Of a DNA stretch of 55,527 bases, positions 38,352 through 50,758 are shown piece by piece. Source of the stretch: Candidatus Andersenbacteria bacterium RIFCSPHIGHO2_02_FULL_46_16 (GTDB taxonomy: Bacteria; Patescibacteriota; Andersenbacteria; UBA10190); contig MHHQ01000025.1 of assembly GCA_001817065.1 (NCBI GenBank), positions 1 to 55,527 of the forward strand, in the 5' to 3' direction. The translations under genes and the position numbers were made by a program. Position 1 is the stretch's first letter. Each line of letters opens with the position of its first letter. A model generated the notes under the pieces. That model was not told where the DNA came from. It did not search any database and saw nothing but the letters and a program-made list of their open reading frames with translations.

Positions 38352-38530
38352 CAACTATAGATGTCACATTATGAAATGCCACTCTTAAATAAACGGGTGG
38401 CGGCGCGGGGGACCCCCACCGAGCGCCTGCAGGCTGCCCGCCTGGCAGGCCGAAGCCGTCGGGTGGGGGTGCAGCGCCGACAGGGCCCGTCACTATATTT
38501 GTGGCATTTCATAATGTGACTTCCATAGTT
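38352..38530. mobile_element. 179-bp foldback (MITE-like) element
   Basis: The left arm 38352-38381 and right arm 38501-38530 are inverted copies with 28 of 30 identical bases; the inner 20, GTCACATTATGAAATGCCAC, are perfect. The interior is very GC-rich and folds further (ACCCCCACC with GGTGGGGGT, CGGCGC with GCGCCG). It sits between two divergent genes. No clear target duplication is seen at the edges, so the mechanism is open. Confidence 0.7.
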
Positions 38531-39469: not shown

Positions 39470-39489
39470 ATTACACCTACGCAAAACTG

Positions 39490-39998
39490 CGGGCGTAAGC
39501 CCGTAGATGGAGACCAGCTGCTGTCTTCTCTGGTATGTTTAGAGCATGGACTATCGAAGACAGAACCACGCGGTGTATTACACCAGGTACCACCTCATAT
39601 TCACGACCAAATTTCGTCGCAAGCTACTCAAGGGCGGTATGGGCGCATACCTAACATACTTAATACGAGGAGTTCAGCGTCATTGTCCAGAGATACAGAT
39701 CATTGATATTAATACAGACCAAGATCATGTGCACATACTGTTGTCGATAGCACCTAAGCTGGCAATTGCAGACGCTGTTCGAAGCATCAAAGCTAATACC
39801 GCCCGTCAGATGAAGAGAAAATTCCCTTTCTTAGAACAAGGATACTTCGATAACAGATCAATTTGGTCGATTGGGTACTTTGTATCAACTGTCGGAATCA
39901 ATGAGTCGGTGATCAGAAAGTACATTGAATTACAAGGCAGAGAAGACAGCGGCCAAGCTGTGCTTGTGTTAAAAGATGCTACGGGCGTAAGCCCGTAG
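39490..39998 (+). mobile_element. IS200/IS605-type insertion unit bounded by identical hairpins
   Basis: CGGGCGTAAGCCCG occurs at 39490-39503 and again at 39982-39995, both extended on the right by TAGA, bracketing a single tnpA gene and no tnpB. Subterminal hairpins of this kind are the single-strand recognition sites of Y1 transposases. Exact cleavage ends cannot be fixed by eye. Confidence 0.7.
39546..39998 (+). CDS. tnpA: IS200-type Y1 transposase TnpA
   Basis: The 150-residue HUH single-strand transposase starts MDYRRQNHAVYYTRYHLIFTTKFRR. The HUH metal motif is HVH at residues 61-63 (DQDHVHILLS), and the catalytic Tyr is Y126 in SVIRKYIEL. Length and domain content are normal and no frame break is seen, so it may be active. 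The last residues (DATGVSP) and the stop codon are written by the right-hand hairpin of the element. No tnpB or accessory gene follows. Confidence 0.92.
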   Translation: MDYRRQNHAVYYTRYHLIFTTKFRRKLLKGGMGAYLTYLIRGVQRHCPEIQIIDINTDQDHVHILLSIAPKLAIADAVRSIKANTARQMKRKFPFLEQGYFDNRSIWSIGYFVSTVGINESVIRKYIELQGREDSGQAVLVLKDATGVSP

Positions 39999-40006
39999 AG
40001 TTTCAC

Positions 40007-41634: not shown

Positions 41635-43077
41635 TTAATATGCTTTAACCAGTTTCACGCCCTGATAAAAATACTTTAGTATCTTCTGGTAACTCCACCC
41701 GTCTTTATTGGCAAAACCATACGCCCCTTGCGCACTCATTCCCACACAATGCCCACGGCATGAACTAGCTATGTGGTGGGGATCCGCCACTGACTTCTGT
41801 AAATGCGGAAAACGATCCGTATTCCATGCCTCCTTGGCCGATCTAGTTCTTCCATCTGAATCGGAGAAGTATACGGTCGATACTGGACTGTCTCCCTCAC
41901 CGTCCGCAACAATAATACCTTTTACTTTATTAAATACGCTTGCCATTCTTGGAGTTATAATTTCATATTCATAACCCCTGTACAATTGGTCATCAGCCGT
42001 TTTTCCTATGTCATACCCCTTATTAATACTTCTTCCGCCAGTTACTGCTTTGTGATACAGGACATATGTTCGCGCTGCGATGCTTAATGCCTTCAGATAT
42101 TCCTCTGGTCCCTCTCCTGACGTTTCAGCGAGACCTCTTAAGTAATATTCAGTCCGAAGCTCATTTATCGCCCATAATTCACCGCATCCGTCACATTTAC
42201 GTATCTCAATTATTCCTCTGAACTTATTATAGTTTTTACCAGGTATTGTGGCGGATGGATCAGAATAACTCTTTATTTGCATCACTGCCTGGTCTAAAGG
42301 CACCAATCTGATCTTATTGGTGGTGTCAAAACTCACCCCGCTGCCCCGCACGTGATACTTACTATCCGACCAACTTACTTGGACAACATCGTCCTTGCCT
42401 AGTGTGCCAAGTATCTTGCTGCCCCCTTCTCTGATCTGATAACTACCGCTGCTGGTTACGCTTATAGCAGATCCATTTGTACCATAGATACCAATCCTAA
42501 CCTGATCTCCCATCGGATGATTACTAAGCCCCGCCACTGTTTTAGTAGTTACTCCTGTAGCAGCGGCACTTCTGCTTGTCTGACCACATATTGTATCCCT
42601 TCCCATTCTAACCTTTTTTTGCCGATGAAACTGCATAGAACTAATCAACGCATTTTCTGTCTTAATTTCATTACAGCTAATGCGTTTGCGCCACCATGCT
42701 TTTTCCGCATTACTGGGATTATTACCGAATATCTTAATGAACAATGGCAGCACATCCTTTATTATTTGCTGCTTATTATCCGTTTTAGTCACAGCCTTAC
42801 TGCCAGCTTTAGTGCTTGTCTTTCTCGTTCCAACCGACAATCCCTGACCCTTTTGGTAGAACATGGCTCCTAATAATGCGTTCCAATCCTTTTTTTCTCC
42901 ACTGGTGACCCTGCCTGCCCAATAACTATTCTCGTTAACATTCGGATTTCTACCGTAAACAACTCTAAATGCTGCATTCACGCGACTTACCAAATCCTGA
43001 GCATGTACGGGTCTTACTACCGCGACATTAGCCCCAATAATTAGCCCAATTATTAACAATTGTTTTACATTTATCAT
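41635..43077 (-). CDS. Secreted SpoIID/LytB-domain protein with N-terminal repeats
   Basis: The 480-residue protein has a signal peptide (QLLIIGLIIGANVAVVRPVHAQ, cleavage after HAQ). Two copies of a roughly 45-residue module follow: FRVVYGRNPNVNENSYWAGRV and FIKIFGNNPSNAEKAWWRKRI. The C-terminal half is the SpoIID domain (GEGPEEYLKALSIAARTYVLYHK, then YFSDSDGRTRSAKEAW and HCVGMSAQGAYGFA). SpoIID proteins remodel peptidoglycan by lytic transglycosylation of denuded strands; the repeats may bind wall or glycan. A promoter overlaps the leader. Confidence 0.86.
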   Translation of the reverse strand: MINVKQLLIIGLIIGANVAVVRPVHAQDLVSRVNAAFRVVYGRNPNVNENSYWAGRVTSGEKKDWNALLGAMFYQKGQGLSVGTRKTSTKAGSKAVTKTDNKQQIIKDVLPLFIKIFGNNPSNAEKAWWRKRISCNEIKTENALISSMQFHRQKKVRMGRDTICGQTSRSAAATGVTTKTVAGLSNHPMGDQVRIGIYGTNGSAISVTSSGSYQIREGGSKILGTLGKDDVVQVSWSDSKYHVRGSGVSFDTTNKIRLVPLDQAVMQIKSYSDPSATIPGKNYNKFRGIIEIRKCDGCGELWAINELRTEYYLRGLAETSGEGPEEYLKALSIAARTYVLYHKAVTGGRSINKGYDIGKTADDQLYRGYEYEIITPRMASVFNKVKGIIVADGEGDSPVSTVYFSDSDGRTRSAKEAWNTDRFPHLQKSVADPHHIASSCRGHCVGMSAQGAYGFANKDGWSYQKILKYFYQGVKLVKAY

Positions 43078-43114: not shown

Positions 43115-43150
43115 CTAATCAATACAGTATAACCGCTCCAATTTTAACGT

Positions 43151-43343
43151 TATAGAGCCCCTCCTCACCCCCTGAACGGGGTGGCGGAATCCCGCGTAGC
43201 AGCCAACTGTCTACCCCGCTTTGTTCCGCTATCGGCGGAGCTACGAGCGGTTATCCCATTCGCACCTTGTCGACCAAAGCCTTGGTGACGACTGATTCAT
43301 CCACCCCCGCCACCGGCGGGGTGGTTTTCTGCGCCGTGGGATA
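43151..43343 (+). repeat. Long inverted repeat, copy A
   Basis: This 193-bp copy is about 90 percent identical by eye to the reverse complement of 48955-49180, with a deletion of some 35 bases relative to that copy near 43247. It contains internal palindromes such as CCACCCCCGCC/GGCGGGGTGG and CACCCC/GGGGTG. No coding potential is evident. The 43078-43457 gap holds this repeat and two promoters. Confidence 0.75.
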
Positions 43344-43406
43344 AACATTACTGCCGATTACCTACTTGACCATGATATACTAAATCTGACGGGAAAATAA
43401 TTAAAT

Positions 43407-43435
43407 TTGACATATTTGCAATTTACAAGCATTAT
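43407..43435 (+). promoter_or_regulatory. Promoter of the GT2 gene at 43458
   Basis: TTGACA at 43407-43412, 17-base spacer, CATTAT at 43430-43435. The -35 is perfect. Transcription would begin near 43443, about 15 bases before the ATG. Confidence 0.6.
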
Positions 43436-43457
43436 ATCCCCTTGTTTGATCAATTAA

Positions 43458-44519
43458 ATGCCAGCCAATCAACACCCTAACGCCCCCTCTATACTTACCC
43501 ATAATGTTATGCTGTCTCAAATCCACCAAGATGCTCTTCAGACGGATGTTAAGTGCCGGTTAGCTATCATCCTTCCGGCCTTAAATGAAGCCAAAACCAT
43601 TAGCGTTGTTATCCGTGGCATACCGCAGGCCATTTCCGGTATTACTGATATAGATATTTTTGTCATTAATGACGGATCAACCGATGACACGGCATCCATT
43701 GCTCGCGCCAGTGGTGCGCATGTTGTTTCTCATGATTCTAACAAGGGAGTCGGCGCGGCCTTTCATACTGGCTTGCGTTCTGCCTTAGCCTCTGGTGCCG
43801 ATATAATCGTTAACATAGACGCGGACGGCCAGTTCAATCCGACTGATATAACCCACCTGATTAAGCCCATTCAATTAGGTAAGGCCGACTTTGTTACGGC
43901 TAGCCGTTTCGCCGATCCAGCTCTCACTCCTCAAATGCCTGCCATCAAGCTTCTCGGCAACCGTCTAATGACTAGCATGATCAATTTCATTACTAAGAAA
44001 AAGTTCACCGACGTTTCATGCGGTTTTCGCGCCTATTCTCGCGAGGCCGCCTTGCGCTTAACGCTGTTTGGTTACTTCACCTATACCCAAGAAACTTTTA
44101 TCGACTTAGCATTCAAGCAAATTAGAATGGTTGAAATGCCGCTGGCTATACGCGGTGTCAGGCAGCATGGCCATTCCCGCGTGGCTGATAACCTTTGGCG
44201 TTATGGTTTAAAAACGTCCACCATTATTTTTCGCGCGGCGCGTGACTATCGACCGCACTATTTCTTCGGTTTGCCCGGCTTGCTCATTTTCGGCAGCGGC
44301 ATCGGCAGCGGCTTATTCTTGTTGCAGCATTTTTTGCGTACCGGCCAAACCTTTCCTTACCGCTCCTTGGTTCAGCTTTCTGGCGTGCTGATTATTGTCG
44401 GCATTCTGCTGCTATTTCTCTCCCTGCTTGCTGACATGATGTATCGCAATCGCATTATTGTTGAAGAGGCCGTTTATCACGCCCGTAAAGCTTCCTACAA
44501 TAATCGTCCCCAGTCTTAA
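43458..44519 (+). CDS. Family 2 glycosyltransferase with C-terminal membrane helices (DPM1/ArnC-like)
   Basis: The 353-residue protein has a GT-A domain (LAIILPALNEAKTISVVIRGI, IFVINDGSTDDTASIA, IVNIDADGQFNPTDI with DxD, DVSCGFRAYSREAALRL) and two C-terminal membrane helices (YFFGLPGLLIFGSGIGSGLFLL and VLIIVGILLLFLSLLADMMY). This architecture fits polyprenyl-phosphate sugar synthases that supply lipid-linked donors for GT-C enzymes, and two GT-C-like genes lie nearby. First of a rightward pair. Confidence 0.9.
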   Translation: MPANQHPNAPSILTHNVMLSQIHQDALQTDVKCRLAIILPALNEAKTISVVIRGIPQAISGITDIDIFVINDGSTDDTASIARASGAHVVSHDSNKGVGAAFHTGLRSALASGADIIVNIDADGQFNPTDITHLIKPIQLGKADFVTASRFADPALTPQMPAIKLLGNRLMTSMINFITKKKFTDVSCGFRAYSREAALRLTLFGYFTYTQETFIDLAFKQIRMVEMPLAIRGVRQHGHSRVADNLWRYGLKTSTIIFRAARDYRPHYFFGLPGLLIFGSGIGSGLFLLQHFLRTGQTFPYRSLVQLSGVLIIVGILLLFLSLLADMMYRNRIIVEEAVYHARKASYNNRPQS

Positions 44520-44556
44520 CTATTTTTGCCTCCTTATAATTCCTAACTCGTCTCCT

Positions 44557-45675
44557 GTGTCAGACCGTCCTCAAGCCCCGCTCAAAGTTTTAATAATCTC
44601 GCGCGCCTGCCGACTATCCGGTGGCGGGATGGAACGATTCGGTCATGATTTTATCCAGGCATTCCAACAGCATCCCGCGCTTTTGGTGGAAACAATCTGT
44701 CATCGTGGATCCCGCTCAACTTCCCCTCTTTTCTCGTTGTTAGTTATACCGCGCGCTTTTTGGCAGTCCCGGCAAGTTGATGTTGTTCATCTCGGCGACC
44801 CCATGCTGTCCTTAGCTGGCTGGTTAATTAAGACAATCTGGCGGAAAAAAATTGCGGTTACAGTCCACGGACTAGATATCACCTATCCTAATGCCTTCTA
44901 CCAGATTTATCTCCGCCTGTTCCTTCGCTCTTTTGATTACTACTTCCCGATTAGTGCTGCTGTTGCCAATTGCCTGCAGCCGTTTCGCGTTTCCGGCCAA
45001 GCTAAAGTCATTAACCCTCCCTTGTCCGTCGACTATTTCGACCCCTCCATAAAGCGCGAGCAACTTTACCAGCTGCTGGGTCGTTACAACCTAAACCAAG
45101 CTAGTCCGCCGGCCTTACTTGCCCCGGCGTATTTATTAACTACCGGTCGCTTGGTAACCCGAAAAGGCCACGCCTGGTTCATTAGCCATGTTATGCCCTT
45201 ACTGCCTTCTCATGTTCATTATTTAGTGGCCGGCACTGGCCCCGCGGAATCTTCTTTACGCCACCTTATCCAAACCCACCATTTAAATGACCGCGTCCAT
45301 CTCTTAGGTCGTGTATCCGATGACGCCCTGCGCATTCTGTACAATACCGTAGACGCGTATGTCCAACCCAACGTCCCGGTAAAAAATGACCTCGAGGGAT
45401 TTGGTTTAGTCGTGATAGAAGCTGCCGCCTGTCAGTTGCCAGTATTTTCTGCTGCGGTTGATGGTTTGCCAGACGCTATCATACCTGGGAAAAACGGTCA
45501 GTTGTTACCACCCAACAATGCCACTGCTTGGCAGGCCGCTTTGCAGCCCCTGATTGCTAGCCCCCAGCCATCCCCCCTTGCCCGTAAGTTTACTCTGCGG
45601 CACTATACCTGGTCGGCATATCTGCGATCCTGGCTGGACACGTTAAGTAACACCGCGACGCCGCACCGTCGTTAA
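44557..45675 (+). CDS. Family 4 glycosyltransferase
   Basis: The domain starts at LKVLIISRACRLSGGGMERFGHDF. I chose GTG at 44557 because the ATG at 44458 would add 33 residues overlapping the upstream gene and lacking family similarity. Other marks: VTVHGLDITYPN, YLLTTGRLVTRKGHAWFI, and DAYVQPNVPVKNDLEGFGLVVIEAAACQLPVFSAAVDGLPDAI with the EX7E pattern. Length from this start is 372 residues. The 3' end overlaps the convergent laccase-domain gene by 33 bases. Confidence 0.88.
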   Translation: MSDRPQAPLKVLIISRACRLSGGGMERFGHDFIQAFQQHPALLVETICHRGSRSTSPLFSLLVIPRAFWQSRQVDVVHLGDPMLSLAGWLIKTIWRKKIAVTVHGLDITYPNAFYQIYLRLFLRSFDYYFPISAAVANCLQPFRVSGQAKVINPPLSVDYFDPSIKREQLYQLLGRYNLNQASPPALLAPAYLLTTGRLVTRKGHAWFISHVMPLLPSHVHYLVAGTGPAESSLRHLIQTHHLNDRVHLLGRVSDDALRILYNTVDAYVQPNVPVKNDLEGFGLVVIEAAACQLPVFSAAVDGLPDAIIPGKNGQLLPPNNATAWQAALQPLIASPQPSPLARKFTLRHYTWSAYLRSWLDTLSNTATPHRR

Positions 45676-46326
45676 AAAATCCTTTACCTCTTCCGCTCGT
45701 CCGGTATCTAATCTTCGCCGATAAGAGGGCAACATTAACATCTCATAGGTGCATCGTCCGTCATAATATATTTTATTGGGGTGTATATCCCAATCATTAA
45801 AAAAATATTGTAAGGCCACCTTGAGCGAGAGATAAATTGACCCGTGGTGCCAATGCGTCGCCCGGCCAAAACGTAACCGAAATCGCCGTAACATATACTC
45901 TTCGCGTAAGAAACTAAAATGATACTCACATATATGCGGCCCGACATATATATAGTCGATTTCTTTCGGTTCCAGATAATTAAGGACATTATCCATCTGA
46001 CCATTTACCAGTGTCTTACGGCTGACGTGCAAAGCGATTGCCTTATTTTCCGTCAAAATAATAACTGGCGCGCAGTCGGCCGTACTAATGCCGGCAATTA
46101 TGCCGCTTTCGTTAGTTATCAAAATCCCGTCTGCCTCTGTCTCTCCGGGCACAACTTGCTCCGCTTTACCAATATTGCCCCCATGTATCTGCTTAACGGT
46201 TAATATTTTCTCTTTAATTGTCGGACTAATTATCTCGTCAATCCGCCATTTTCCAAAATCCTTGCCGTTTTCCTCTTGATGCTCAGTCTTTCCTGCCTCC
46301 TGTTTTATAGAGGGCCATTTTTCCAT
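45643..46326 (-). CDS. Laccase-domain (YfiH/YlmD-type) protein
   Basis: The protein has LTVKQIHGGNIGKAE, GISTADCAPVIILTENKAIALHVSRKTLV and YVGPHICEYHFSF, the HxxC-type metal signatures of the DUF152 family. Members are purine nucleoside phosphorylases or peptidoglycan-editing factors rather than true laccases. I favour the ATG at 46326 because AAAAGG lies nine bases ahead; the frame begins at 46350. Either start overlaps the end of the GT-C-like gene, so the two are coupled. Its 3' end overlaps a convergent gene. Confidence 0.87.
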   Translation of the reverse strand: MEKWPSIKQEAGKTEHQEENGKDFGKWRIDEIISPTIKEKILTVKQIHGGNIGKAEQVVPGETEADGILITNESGIIAGISTADCAPVIILTENKAIALHVSRKTLVNGQMDNVLNYLEPKEIDYIYVGPHICEYHFSFLREEYMLRRFRLRFGRATHWHHGSIYLSLKVALQYFFNDWDIHPNKIYYDGRCTYEMLMLPSYRRRLDTGRAEEVKDFLTTVRRRGVT

Positions 46327-48091
46327 TGTGAAATACCTTTTCATAATCATCTAGTTTCCAATTATCAATCTCATCCTGCCTAATTAACAAATATTCTGCT
46401 TGCTGTAAAGTTTTCATCTGAGCATCTGTATCTCCAGCAAACGCCTTCTTAACGTCTTCTAATAGGTCATCCTGGGGCGCCAACCAGTAATCTGCCCTAA
46501 CCTGCGCTCGTCCCGTAAACATCGGTACATTCCATGGCGCTTCGCTGCGCGTTAATATAACATCGGAAGCAATGGTGTTATCTCGGATAAAATCTAATGC
46601 CTCTTGCTCCGCTAGATCGACTCGTTGTTCATCTTGCCTCATTAAATGGTCATGCGTCCTGGCTCCGCTGATCAAAACTGGCAACAGCACTATCAGCACC
46701 AAGGCTAGGCTTGCTCCACTACGGGCTAACCAGCGCAAGGCACTGCCTGATTCATGCCATAGTCTTTGCCAATCGAAATACCAGCTGATGATCGGCGCTA
46801 ATAATAGCGGGAAGCCAACCATTAAAGCATGGTAAATGAATCTTTCGCTGTTGGCCACGATAATGCTTCTTTGTGATACTAAAAATATCAACAGCGCCAT
46901 ACCCATTAAACCGACGATACAAAGCTCCACCCAATCGCTATTTTCTTGCTGCTTTAAGACGGCCAATCCCAAAATAATTATCACCGGTGCCAGCCGCATG
47001 ATCGACTCGGCCGCTGTATACGAAAAGTGCGGCCAGCCTAACAACACATCGCCCGCCGAGAAGGACTGGAACAAAGAAACCCAGCCAATAATTCCAGCTA
47101 ACCATAACATTCTACCCATAACTCCCTGCCTGGTTTCCATCAATCGTTTTGTGTAGTACACAATTGTGACTGCCACAACAGCCGCTCCAGTCACGGCGTT
47201 AACTAGTAGTAGCACCAGCGTCACTAAGGCGCTAGTTCCCACCCACCAATATTCCCGACTGCTTGTTTCCTGCCCTGCCCTGACCAGCAAGCTTGCGGCG
47301 AGCAGCCACATGCCCATGATAAAAAAATGTGTTTGCGGATAAATATAACTATCCCAAGAAACCGCTAAAACATATCCGATAATTCCCGCTTGAACAAGCA
47401 AAATACCCCATCGCGAACTTATTCCTAACCACATGATTTCCTTATTAGTCGGCTCCGGCCACCAAGCGTCCATCAACAAGAAAAACATCGGTATAGTAAA
47501 AATAATTTGCAGATAGGTTAATGTCGGCAAGAAATGCATCCAGTCCATATTTATCCCGAACGCGTTTAACAGTGTGGCCAGACCACCATGCCATAAAGAT
47601 GGATATTCCAGATACTCATTCGCACTAAAAGGATTCTCGCTAACCAACCCTTTATCCAGCATTGATCTTTGCACGAGCGTGATCATGATCATCGTGTCTC
47701 CGTTATAAAACCCATGCATCACCCATTCGCTATTGTGAAATCCGTTCCGCAGCTGCACTAACCACGCCGCACTGATTACTCCTATCAGTAATACTAAGAC
47801 TGCTAAATCACTTCTCCCGCTACCGGGTGATCGATAAGGCCACGACCATTCTTTTATCCCGATCAACCACGGCACCAAGCCAATCAAAGCACCGGCCAGG
47901 AAAATTAATTCTGTGTTGCCATTTGGCCAGACTGTACGATTGATCAGCGTCAACACTAACCACTGTGCTTCCCAAAATGTTCCGGCACATGCGATGAATG
48001 TCAGCAACCTTTGCTGCCGAAATAATATACCGGCCATTAATAACGAACTTATTGTCAGCACTACCATTGCGGGTATCATAAGATCCATCAT
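46283..48091 (-). CDS. GT-C-like polytopic membrane protein, 602 aa
   Basis: About 12 membrane helices are followed by a soluble domain of about 110 residues (DEQRVDLAEQEALDFIRDN onward). A loop after the first helices contains NGDTMIMITLVQRSML and NPFSANEYLEYPSLWHGG, acidic residues placed like the catalytic loop of GT-C enzymes. Such proteins transfer sugars from polyprenyl-phosphate donors outside the membrane. No known subfamily is recognised. It is divergent from the GT2 gene at 48195. Confidence 0.65.
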   Translation of the reverse strand: MMDLMIPAMVVLTISSLLMAGILFRQQRLLTFIACAGTFWEAQWLVLTLINRTVWPNGNTELIFLAGALIGLVPWLIGIKEWSWPYRSPGSGRSDLAVLVLLIGVISAAWLVQLRNGFHNSEWVMHGFYNGDTMIMITLVQRSMLDKGLVSENPFSANEYLEYPSLWHGGLATLLNAFGINMDWMHFLPTLTYLQIIFTIPMFFLLMDAWWPEPTNKEIMWLGISSRWGILLVQAGIIGYVLAVSWDSYIYPQTHFFIMGMWLLAASLLVRAGQETSSREYWWVGTSALVTLVLLLVNAVTGAAVVAVTIVYYTKRLMETRQGVMGRMLWLAGIIGWVSLFQSFSAGDVLLGWPHFSYTAAESIMRLAPVIIILGLAVLKQQENSDWVELCIVGLMGMALLIFLVSQRSIIVANSERFIYHALMVGFPLLLAPIISWYFDWQRLWHESGSALRWLARSGASLALVLIVLLPVLISGARTHDHLMRQDEQRVDLAEQEALDFIRDNTIASDVILTRSEAPWNVPMFTGRAQVRADYWLAPQDDLLEDVKKAFAGDTDAQMKTLQQAEYLLIRQDEIDNWKLDDYEKVFHNGKMALYKTGGRKD

Positions 48092-48147
48092 CTATCATCT
48101 ACTGTTAAATTTCCAGCTCTTGCCTCTTAAATATTAATGCGTCAATT

Positions 48148-48176
48148 TTGTCCTTTGTTTGTTTCTTGCCTAAAAT
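48148..48176 (+). promoter_or_regulatory. Promoter of the GT2 gene at 48195
   Basis: TTGTCC at 48148-48153, 17-base spacer, TAAAAT at 48171-48176. The expected start near 48183 leaves a leader of about 12 bases and no room for a standard ribosome-binding site. Confidence 0.55.
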
Positions 48177-48194
48177 TCCATTAATTTAATAACT

Positions 48195-48920
48195 ATGCCT
48201 ACCCAATCATCTTCTTTGAGTCTAGTCATCCCTGCTTATAACGAAGCAGCACGATTACCTGCTTTCTTTGCCAGTATAGTTGCGTTTCATCGAGAGCATC
48301 CTTTACTCATGAATGAAATTATTTTAGTGGACGATGGCAGCACTGATGCCACTTCTGATATAGCTCGCCAATATGCTGCTCAGCTGCCGTTAAAATTAAA
48401 CAGATTATCAGTCAATCAGGGCAAAGGGGCCGCTGTTCAAGCCGGAGTCAAGCAGGCCGGCGGTGATTACATAGTTTTTATAGATGCCGATGGTGCGACT
48501 GATATCTCTGAATTGCCAAAAATGATCTCTGCCCTACAAAGCTCTGATATTGCTATTGGCAATCGGTGGTTGCCTGGCTCCCACACCGAGCGCCACTCTC
48601 TCCTACGTCGACTTTCTGGCTGGGCTTACCGGCGCTATATGAGTTTGTTTGGGCTAGGACAAATTGACACTATGTGCGGATTTAAAGGATATCGGCAGCC
48701 AGTCGCACAAACTCTTTTCACCGAACTTATTGAGCCGCGGTGGTTGTTCGATACTGAAGTCGTGTTCAAGGCCGTGCGGGCTGGTTACAAAATTACTAAT
48801 TTTCCCATTCATTGGGAGTCGAAAGACGGCAGCAAACTCAGTACGTTCACTCTCTTTAAATCCGCTCTCGGTATCTATCCGCTGATAGCAAAAATTAAAA
48901 AATCCTCGCAATTGAATTAA
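48195..48920 (+). CDS. Family 2 glycosyltransferase, dolichyl-phosphate beta-glucosyltransferase-like
   Basis: The 241-residue cytosolic protein has LSLVIPAYNEAARLPAFF, IILVDDGSTDATSDIA, NQGKGAAVQAGVKQAGGDYIVFIDADGATD (DxD) and MCGFKGYRQPVAQTLF, typical of the ALG5/DPM1-like group that makes polyprenyl-phosphate sugars. It lacks membrane helices. It ends just before copy B of the long inverted repeat. Confidence 0.9.
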   Translation: MPTQSSSLSLVIPAYNEAARLPAFFASIVAFHREHPLLMNEIILVDDGSTDATSDIARQYAAQLPLKLNRLSVNQGKGAAVQAGVKQAGGDYIVFIDADGATDISELPKMISALQSSDIAIGNRWLPGSHTERHSLLRRLSGWAYRRYMSLFGLGQIDTMCGFKGYRQPVAQTLFTELIEPRWLFDTEVVFKAVRAGYKITNFPIHWESKDGSKLSTFTLFKSALGIYPLIAKIKKSSQLN

Positions 48921-48954
48921 TTAGCTTCTTTAATAACCAGGTTCTGTCTATCTT

Positions 48955-49180
48955 TATCCCACTGCGCAGAAAACCACCCCGCCGGTGGCGGGGGTGGTTG
49001 AATCAGCCGTCGCCAAGGCTTTGGTCGACCAGGTGCGAATAGGATAACCATCCGCTGCCATTCAAAGCTCCGTGAGCAAGGGAGCGTAGCTCCACCGATA
49101 GCGGAGCAAAGTGGGGTTGACAAGTTGGCTGCTACACGGGATTCCGCCATCCCGTTCAGGGGGCGGGATAGGGCTCCATA
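48955..49180 (-). repeat. Long inverted repeat, copy B
   Basis: This 226-bp copy matches copy A (43151-43343) in inverse orientation. It keeps a segment of about 35 bases (around 49050-49090, containing GCTCCGTGAGCAAGGGAGC, a hairpin of its own) that copy A lacks. The copies bracket 5.6 kb of glycan genes. Confidence 0.75.
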
Positions 49181-49232
49181 AATTTGTGATTTTTAAATTT
49201 AATTAGGATTTAATAATTTACCACCGCCATCA

Positions 49233-49254
49233 GGCGGGGTCCCGCCCGAGGCGG
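49233..49254. repeat. GC-rich REP-like palindrome
   Basis: GGCGGG, CCCGCC and GGCGGG follow each other at 49233-49254, so two alternative hairpins are possible. It is one of several repeats in the gap 48921-49627, which also holds copy B, a foldback element and an 8-base palindrome (TTAGTATC at 49512-49519 with GATACTAA at 49535-49542). Confidence 0.5.
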
Positions 49255-49280
49255 GTGAATTTAGTATTTTAAACCTACTT

Positions 49281-49468
49281 ATACCAAGTCCATCTGATTC
49301 GTGCAGTTCCTCTCCCTGCCTGCCCTCTCGAAGCCCCGCCATCAGCGCGAGGGCGAAGTGGGGATAAGGGAGAGTTAGGGTGGGTTTAAACGTAGCTGAC
49401 GCCAAACCCCCTGTTTCCTCCTGGTCAGCCGGATTACTAGCTTGTCACGAATTAAGTGGACTTGGTAT
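49281..49468. mobile_element. 188-bp foldback (MITE-like) element
   Basis: The 23-base ends, ATACCAAGTCCA plus four variable bases plus ATTCGTG, recur inverted at 49446-49468 (19 of 23 identical). The interior is GC-rich with further stems. The architecture matches the element at 38352-38530, though the end sequences differ. Confidence 0.5.
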
Positions 49469-49627: not shown

Positions 49628-50758
49628 ATGACCATCGCTTTTGCTACAACACAATCAGCTAGCGGCTCCACGCTCATTGGCCGCACTATACCGATTGCTA
49701 AGCATTTAGCCAAGAAGCATGATGTACACCTTCTAGCCTTCACCCCTTTGCCGAAAATCACCCGGATAACTTGCCACCCATCAGGTCACAATCCTTTTAT
49801 TCGCACCCCGTCCGGCAAAAAACGTCTGCGCTCGTTTTCTCTTCTGGCTAATATGCTAAATTCCGCATTCATTATCAACTGGCATCTCTGGCGCATTAAC
49901 CCCGACTTAGTGGTTATTGTTAAAACCATGCCGCATAACGTTCTAGGCGTTCGTCTTTGGCACTTATTCCATCCCAGCCGCAAGATCATTGTGGACGTTG
50001 ATGACTTTGAATTAACCGCCAATCAGTTGACATCTTTATGGCAAAGAGCGGCGATTCACTGGGCACAACGCTGCTCCGCACGCATAGCTAGCCATATTAT
50101 TACCGCCACTCCTTTTTTGTTCGATTATTTTTCCAATCTGCGTCCTCAGTCTAAAGTCTCGCTAATCCCTACTGGTATCTATCCTCATCCCATTCCTCAA
50201 TATTCCACTGCGCCTACCCTGACTTATCTAGGCAGTGTTTCAGTTTCCTCCGGTCATCGGGTTGATTTTTTGCCTTCCGTTATGGCTCATCTAATTAAAT
50301 CCTACCCCCATGCTAAACTTATTATCGCTGGCACCGGCGATGACGAAAACAAACTCAAGCAAGCATTTGCCGCCCGCCATTTATCCTGCTCGGTAGTTTG
50401 GCACGGCCGCTTTACAAACGATGATCTGGCTATGCTCCTAACGAATACTTCCATCATTATTGATCCAATCGATTCCTCCATTGCCAATCGTGCTAAAAGC
50501 AGTTTTCGAGTGGCTTTAGCGGTTAGTGTTGGCCTGCCAGTAGTCACCAGCAATATTGGTTTGCGTCCCTGGTTAATTCCTCCCCAATTACATCATCGTT
50601 TTTTTGCTCAGCCCGATTCCACAGAACTAGCCAAGACCATCACTGCTTTATTAGCCCGTCCATTATCATCCGCTGACCGGCTCAGCCTGATCTCCCATGC
50701 CCGCCGCTTTTATTGGTCAAAGCTGGCCGCCGATTATCAATCTATCATTACCTCATGA
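49628..50758 (+). CDS. Family 4-like glycosyltransferase
   Basis: The 376-residue GT-B protein has TIPIAKHLAKKHDVHLLAF, KIIVDVDDFELTANQ, the junction TLTYLGSVSVSSGHRVDFLP, and IIIDPIDSSIANRAKSSFRVALAVSVGLPVVTSNIGL in the donor half. The canonical EX7E pattern is less clear (an RAKSSFRVA segment occupies the place), so donor or activity may differ from its neighbours. Its stop overlaps the next ATG as ATGA. Confidence 0.83.
   Translation: MTIAFATTQSASGSTLIGRTIPIAKHLAKKHDVHLLAFTPLPKITRITCHPSGHNPFIRTPSGKKRLRSFSLLANMLNSAFIINWHLWRINPDLVVIVKTMPHNVLGVRLWHLFHPSRKIIVDVDDFELTANQLTSLWQRAAIHWAQRCSARIASHIITATPFLFDYFSNLRPQSKVSLIPTGIYPHPIPQYSTAPTLTYLGSVSVSSGHRVDFLPSVMAHLIKSYPHAKLIIAGTGDDENKLKQAFAARHLSCSVVWHGRFTNDDLAMLLTNTSIIIDPIDSSIANRAKSSFRVALAVSVGLPVVTSNIGLRPWLIPPQLHHRFFAQPDSTELAKTITALLARPLSSADRLSLISHARRFYWSKLAADYQSIITS

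Follow-up and report, generated by a model that had tools for sequence, protein, structure and literature searches.

Rickettsia palindromic elements (RPE) are folded, dispersed sequences of about 150 bp that are found in frame inside genes and can be read through without a stop (PMC10969869). A high frequency of in-frame palindromic insertions has been discussed as peculiar to Rickettsia, though a 2024 review considered a similar mechanism in other prokaryotes conceivable (PMC10969869). An 88-kb inversion in Rickettsia africae has RPE-6 repeats on either side (PMC2694212), and another class of folded repeat, the REPIN, has been described in PMC3116915. Here we analyse a pair of inverted repeats, copies A and B, in a 55,527-nucleotide stretch of contig MHHQ01000025.1 (the window) from Candidatus Andersenbacteria bacterium RIFCSPHIGHO2_02_FULL_46_16, a member of the Patescibacteria with a genome of 1.36 Mb in 32 contigs (the source genome, G000). 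The repeats bracket a group of glycan genes, and an original prediction made from the window alone had proposed that they invert this module or move it as a cassette. It is considerably more probable that A and B were inserted independently of each other and belong to a selfish, non-autonomous palindromic element of Patescibacteria that resembles RPE. Like RPE, the element is short, palindromic and dispersed, lies both between genes and in frame within unrelated metabolic genes, and no autonomous partner was seen. It differs in belonging to another phylum, in being an array of distinct hairpins and in that the sampled copies are mostly intergenic (6 of 44 distant copies are genic, and no copy in the source genome is). 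RPE are not known to have a transposase. The patescibacterial element appears to work like RPE, its closest analogue, and is likened to them by its features, not filed as one of them.

Copies A and B are 88.4% identical across 198 aligned columns. An inverted-repeat search divided the similarity into two arms (43249-43348 with 48950-49049, 100 nt, 93%; 43150-43208 with 49123-49181, 59 nt, 86%), the longest identical tract being 34 nt. Both copies are palindromic and rich in GC, and the fold of A reaches -63.2 kcal/mol (z -4.9 versus shuffles), so that the description of one inverted repeat with internal palindromes was correct. The covariance model matched A at 43183-43346 (E 2.5e-38). The suggested lack of coding potential holds for A, which has stops in the reading frame employed by the genic copies of relatives, and not for B, which is open in it. 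An extra insert is found in B and eight other copies and is missing from A. A search of the whole source genome returned 12-15 long copies and additional short ones on ten contigs. The right end gave 20 matches there as opposed to none for a reversed control, and there were further divergent copies, among them one on contig C26. The dispersed copies number about 21. The repeat is therefore a dispersed element of its own, as had been proposed. All copies in this genome are intergenic or at gene ends, and copies other than A and B flank unrelated genes. The last 17 codons and the stop of a cytidylyltransferase-like open reading frame (ORF) come from a short copy (L073 1945-2409, that is, C9:81944-82408), a case that speaks for insertion, and the C26 copy likewise forms the end of its upstream ORF. 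The bracketing by A and B does not stand out: when about 20 copies were placed at random, 54% of simulations contained one or more inverted pairs no more than 6 kb apart (P = 0.54); four close pairs were observed against 1.6 expected (P = 0.07). The copy at C9:83817 is 89.9% identical to A and 88.9% to B, and the similarity of A to B does not exceed theirs to copies from other contigs.

The genes between the repeats had been named accurately: both GT2 genes, the GT4 gene and the Cu-oxidase_4 gene were confirmed by Pfam, and the 602-aa GT-C-like protein, for which there was no Pfam match, has a homologue in each of the ten family genomes (Table 1). The cluster comprises, in order, a 908-aa flippase/GT protein, GT4, SpoIID, GT2, GT4, Cu-oxidase_4 (where detected), GT-C, GT2, GT4, a 787-aa membrane protein, a flippase and a small protein. 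Comparison with relatives found it collinear and in the same relative orientation across both repeat sites in all nine other family genomes, as far as their contigs reach, and found the element at this locus in none of the nine. The GT2-GT4 gap that holds B measures 707 bp in the source genome. Five relatives have 14-28 bp there, and three more have a longer gap from other causes. Because the locus is collinear and free of the element in nine relatives, and because of the difference in the B gap, comparative evidence indicates that A and B were inserted later into a glycan locus that is old and conserved and has kept its orientation. Their placement around a sugar-polymer gene cluster is a coincidence. 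More small GC-rich palindromes adjoin copy B at 49218-49260 and 49296-49400, in the enlarged intergenic gap.

The element is a multi-hairpin unit of 66-275 nt of the form RTGRAGCYCC...GGRTAAA. Aligned copies give sharp ends, TATGGAGCCCC on the left and GGTTTTCTGCGCAGTGGGATAAA on the right, and short copies consist of both ends around one hairpin. In the broader consensus the left part reads RTGRAGCTCC-(GGGCTTACGCCC)-GGTATCTTC and is followed by a middle hairpin with the loop GGCGGAA and, in many members, by a third hairpin CCCACTTCGC..GCTACGYGGG, while the right part reads ATCCGCC.GAAGCAGAAA .. CATTCATCC-(hairpin)-GGTTTTCTGCGAAGGCGGATAAA. Distant members form the same hairpin chain when folded. 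In an alignment of 30 diverse members, which was fitted to the model and is so biased in its favour, 88.5% of helix cells form standard pairs (37-46% with slid partners), 35 of 43 helix pairs are changed on both sides and none of 500 shuffles reached the observed pairing. A second test was independent of the model alignment, with base composition incompletely controlled; in it the right end paired with its own upstream sequence at -23.3 kcal/mol and with that of other members at -20.8 kcal/mol (0 of 5000 permutations). Two arms compete for pairing with the right end, the left inner arm and the TTATCCCATTCGCA arm, each of which changes along with it. Taken from these comparisons, the conserved fold is real. 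Helix positions of the plus strand hold 61 G-T against 31 A-C in the wider set (P = 0.002), an excess that favours the plus strand as the folded one, leans on a plus-strand model and is also compatible with single-stranded DNA. The source genome's own family has no such strand bias (28 to 32).

Two nearly identical copies, L226 and L155 (G299), differ by about 51 nt of additional palindrome, which one of them carries in its third stem. Such extra sequence recurs in several other members, and modules appear to come and go in the middle hairpins. A generic hairpin CCCCACTTCGCTCC..GGAGCTWCGCGGGGTTAT, with a second stem and an A-run, stands beside terminators (L093, L094, L095, L140-L142; G009, G001, G003, G010) and recurs in genomes of this order; it is possibly the source of the third stem.

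Six relatives carry the element within an open protein gene, in sense and in frame; with so few cases the shared orientation carries little weight. In triosephosphate isomerase (TIM; L224) it occupies residues 43-87; alignments with TIM homologues from the PDB cover residues 9-39 and resume at 86. UvrC (L149) also holds an in-frame copy; structure-library homologues cover its two end domains only, and the insertion point comes from family models. The remaining cases are phosphoenolpyruvate (PEP) synthase (L225), a Y-family polymerase-like protein assigned by reading (L157), an LPG-synthase-domain protein (L146) and a membrane protein (L152). One predicted insert peptide is GIFSTLPNGAESAEAEISSH, and the element-encoded stretch in G277 reads NEAPRVNARGIFS..ESAEAEISSHSS..RFSAKVDK. 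A left GAPR or EAPR and a right FSAKVDK or LSAKEGK recur among the genic copies, though not in all. In 31 of 58 copies the two ends have a common frame (expected 1/3, P = 0.0013); the frame statistics, including one given below, were computed after the in-frame cases had been seen. Further ORFs that overlap elements were set aside, those in G233, G182 and G300 being antisense and judged spurious, and that in G011 being out of frame with the gene upstream of it, whose end lies at the element.

Relatives of the element extend through the phylum. One model (R1) detected divergent relatives in a further two genera of the same family, a second (R2) picked up a compact form in a different family of the order, and R2 together with a third (R3) found members phylum-wide, R3 at E<=1e-5 in 27 of 380 sampled genomes with mostly 1-5 matches each. 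As the 380 are a sample of a larger phylum searched with strict filters, 27 is a lower bound, and the weakest R3 matches near 1e-5 may include chance ones. Weak matches in G001, G003, G009 and G010 consist largely of a single generic hairpin and do not count as secure family members. Near-identical copies with unrelated flanks occur in G060, G102 and G299. An exact scan for the right end in 84,980 genomes gave 15 matches, of which one was recognised as real (Patescibacteria isolate B100T3L11) and 14 were judged chance without individual checks. Rfam gave no match, at gathering or relaxed thresholds, for A, other copies or relatives. A search of phages and plasmids gave none either, and in viral contigs the right-end pattern had no match and the left-end pattern 22 chance matches without model support. 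No description of the element in Patescibacteria or the Candidate Phyla Radiation was found in the open-access literature, and it is apparently undescribed in the phylum.

In the mechanism we propose, the unit would begin at RTGRAGCYCC and end at GGRTAAA, with a left-end hairpin, one or two middle hairpins and a right-end domain in between, and would fold as consecutive hairpins within one strand. It would insert without target duplication and mostly between genes, a genic insertion being tolerated if the frame is kept and then adding about 45-67 residues. A hairpin-recognising enzyme would presumably act in trans. Amplification to about 21 copies in the source genome would have placed two in gaps of the old glycan locus, which A and B would neither mobilise nor, on present evidence, invert. 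Of these points, dispersal, insertion, the conserved fold, the in-frame position within genes and the lack of target duplication were demonstrated, whereas movement in trans is an inference. Among 51 copies no target duplication of 3-10 bp, at several offsets, rose above chance, and no tetranucleotide is conserved in the left flank, which is merely A/T-rich. A terminator-like A-run with a hairpin stands at the right end of 9 of 60 copies and at the left end of 1 of 58 (Fisher P = 0.017), a tendency at most for terminators to serve as insertion targets. Several observations weigh against this account. The frame anchored on the left end is open in only 24 of 58 copies, compared with 74 of 290 (25%) for other frames (P = 0.017), the UvrC case uses another frame, and the in-frame cases all come from distant relatives, with no copy inside a gene in the source genome. 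No empty site at base resolution was shown, the comparison being with same-family genomes of other genera, and no mobilising enzyme was identified, nor a transposase common to all hosts.

A possible mechanism, which we hold at clearly less than even chances and which could sit under the reading of A and B as inserted RPE-like copies, is that the element is a non-autonomous IS200/IS605 derivative or a repetitive extragenic palindrome (REP or REPIN), which a Y1 (HUH) transposase would mobilise in trans in single-stranded form. Y1 suggests itself first, because the element's ends resemble those of IS200/605, with hairpin and guide features taken from PMC6006769, and because the window IS200 (39480-40005) is flanked on both sides by hairpins whose core GGGCGTAAGCCC is the reverse complement of GGGCTTACGCCC in the element hairpins. 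Hairpins near both ends of the element share TCC-stem-GG, the preference is intergenic, target duplication is lacking, and the source genome has three Y1 genes, two of IS200 type. Against this, no Y1 gene was detected in 5 of 15 element-bearing genomes, four of these five being 99-100% complete and one holding five copies, and none of 28 Y1 genes has a strong element match beside it, the model matches there being weak; no autonomous copy was seen. GGAG or GAAG precedes the left hairpin, with no equivalent at the right hairpin (ATTCATCC). Non-autonomous IS200/IS605 derivatives, the miniature inverted-repeat transposable elements (MITEs) and palindrome-associated transposable elements (PATEs), likewise have subterminal hairpins at both ends and lack target duplication, whereas the element has extra conserved hairpins between its ends and has neither a flanking target tetranucleotide nor a universal TnpA. 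The REP, bacterial interspersed mosaic elements (BIMEs) and REPIN that accompany REP-associated tyrosine transposases (RAYTs) are similarly extragenic folded repeats, with several hairpins, inverted partners and compensatory changes, but their units measure 21-65 nt as opposed to 66-275 nt and number hundreds instead of 1-21 copies, while some copies of the element lie inside genes and several of its hosts are without a Y1 transposase. A link to TnpB and omega RNA was rejected, as the TnpB zinc-ribbon family PF07282 is missing from the source genome. Each of the three Y1 genes there has an element copy about 3.2-3.6 kb away (C25:39573, C7:48176, C1:17109; L032, L031, L033), a proximity noticed after the fact that would have a chance of roughly 0.1% if the positions were independent.

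That the element is a conserved structured RNA, regulatory or guide-type and multi-copy by happenstance, is unlikely. The strong covariation and the plus-strand G-T excess would agree with it, but that excess is subject to the model and single-strand caveats given above and has no counterpart in the window's own family, neighbouring genes and orientation are inconsistent, most genomes are without the element and Rfam has no match; a T-box likeness of GGGTGGCGGAATCCCGCG was rejected for want of Rfam support and of an aminoacyl-tRNA synthetase context. It is very unlikely that the element is a MITE of a DDE transposase, with terminal inverted repeats and target duplication: a subterminal inverted repeat AATCCC.CGTAGCAGAAAAC/GTTTTCTGCG..GTGGGAT is present, but the ends themselves are not mutual inverted repeats (RTGRAG versus GGRTAAA) and the 51 copies give no duplication above chance. 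The element fails the defining features of REP/REPIN, IS200/IS605 and DDE MITEs. Scarcely credible is the proposal of the original prediction that A and B are recombination sites inverting the glycan module or the ends of a cassette moved as a unit. The inverted copies do surround genes as in invertible cassettes and share the 34-nt identical tract, and RPE repeats flank an inversion in R. africae (PMC2694212); yet the module is ancestral, with the GT-C gene in ten of ten genomes and one orientation in all relatives, pairing is expected by chance, A and B are not sister copies, and the repeats are dispersed genome-wide beside unrelated genes. These comparisons refute the cassette version and lend no support to inversion, which by homologous recombination would still be conceivable. 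An autonomous element between the close copy pairs on C9 was also rejected, the enclosed genes being, by reading, a ROK-type kinase and a nucleotidyltransferase and not transposases.

As a second case of in-frame palindromic insertion, in a distant and poorly studied phylum, the family offers precise ends, a covariance model able to find more members and concrete fused proteins (TIM, UvrC, PEP synthase). These make it possible to test if such inserts are simply tolerated or bring a benefit, and by what means elements without their own transposase are mobilised. A more speculative reading, which we consider rather doubtful, is that single-strand-folding mobile elements, spread phylum-wide by an undescribed enzyme or RNA-based route, add in-frame peptides to essential proteins independently of RPE. 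If this were true, two unrelated lineages of reduced bacteria would share in-frame peptide addition as a mode of protein change.

Table 1. Copies A and B and surrounding genes in the window.
Feature	Position	Strand	Details and basis
Copy A of the palindromic element	43150..43346	+	Left end TTATAGAGCC, right end GTGGGATAAA; inverted-repeat search, genome search, covariance model
Right-end domain of A	43251..43344	+	TTATCCCATTCGCA ... TGCGCCGTGGGATAA closing helix enclosing two hairpins; fold; helix covaries phylum-wide
Right-end hairpin of A (CCACCCCCGCCACCGGCGGGGTGG)	43301..43324	+	Fold; compensatory changes in relatives
Copy B, inverted	48950..49181	-	About 32 extra nt in third stem; inverted-repeat and genome searches, covariance model
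SpoIID-domain gene, conserved neighbour left of A	41635..43077	-	Pfam PF08486; synteny
GT2 glycosyltransferase	43458..44519	+	Pfam PF00535; synteny
GT4 glycosyltransferase	44533..45675	+	Pfam PF00534; synteny
Cu-oxidase_4 ('laccase') domain gene	45643..46350	-	Pfam PF02578
602-aa membrane GT-C-like gene	46283..48091	-	No Pfam match; homologue in 10/10 family genomes
GT2 glycosyltransferase	48195..48920	+	Pfam PF00535; synteny
GT4 glycosyltransferase, conserved neighbour right of B	49628..50758	+	Pfam; gap lengths

Two further features lie to the left of copy A. The IS200-type Y1 transposase gene (150 aa) at 39480-40005 falls in an insertion region that is missing from the collinear locus of the relatives. 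At 38353-38530 there is a second dispersed element with inverted repeats of about 45 bp (ACTATAGAYRTCACATYATGA...), apparently inserted at TA with TA duplication. One copy of it is nested in, and interrupts, the palindromic element copy at C25:164066-164476 of the source genome (L080), and another stands beside the C5:86861 copy (L083). This second element looks like a MITE of the Tc1/IS630 type.

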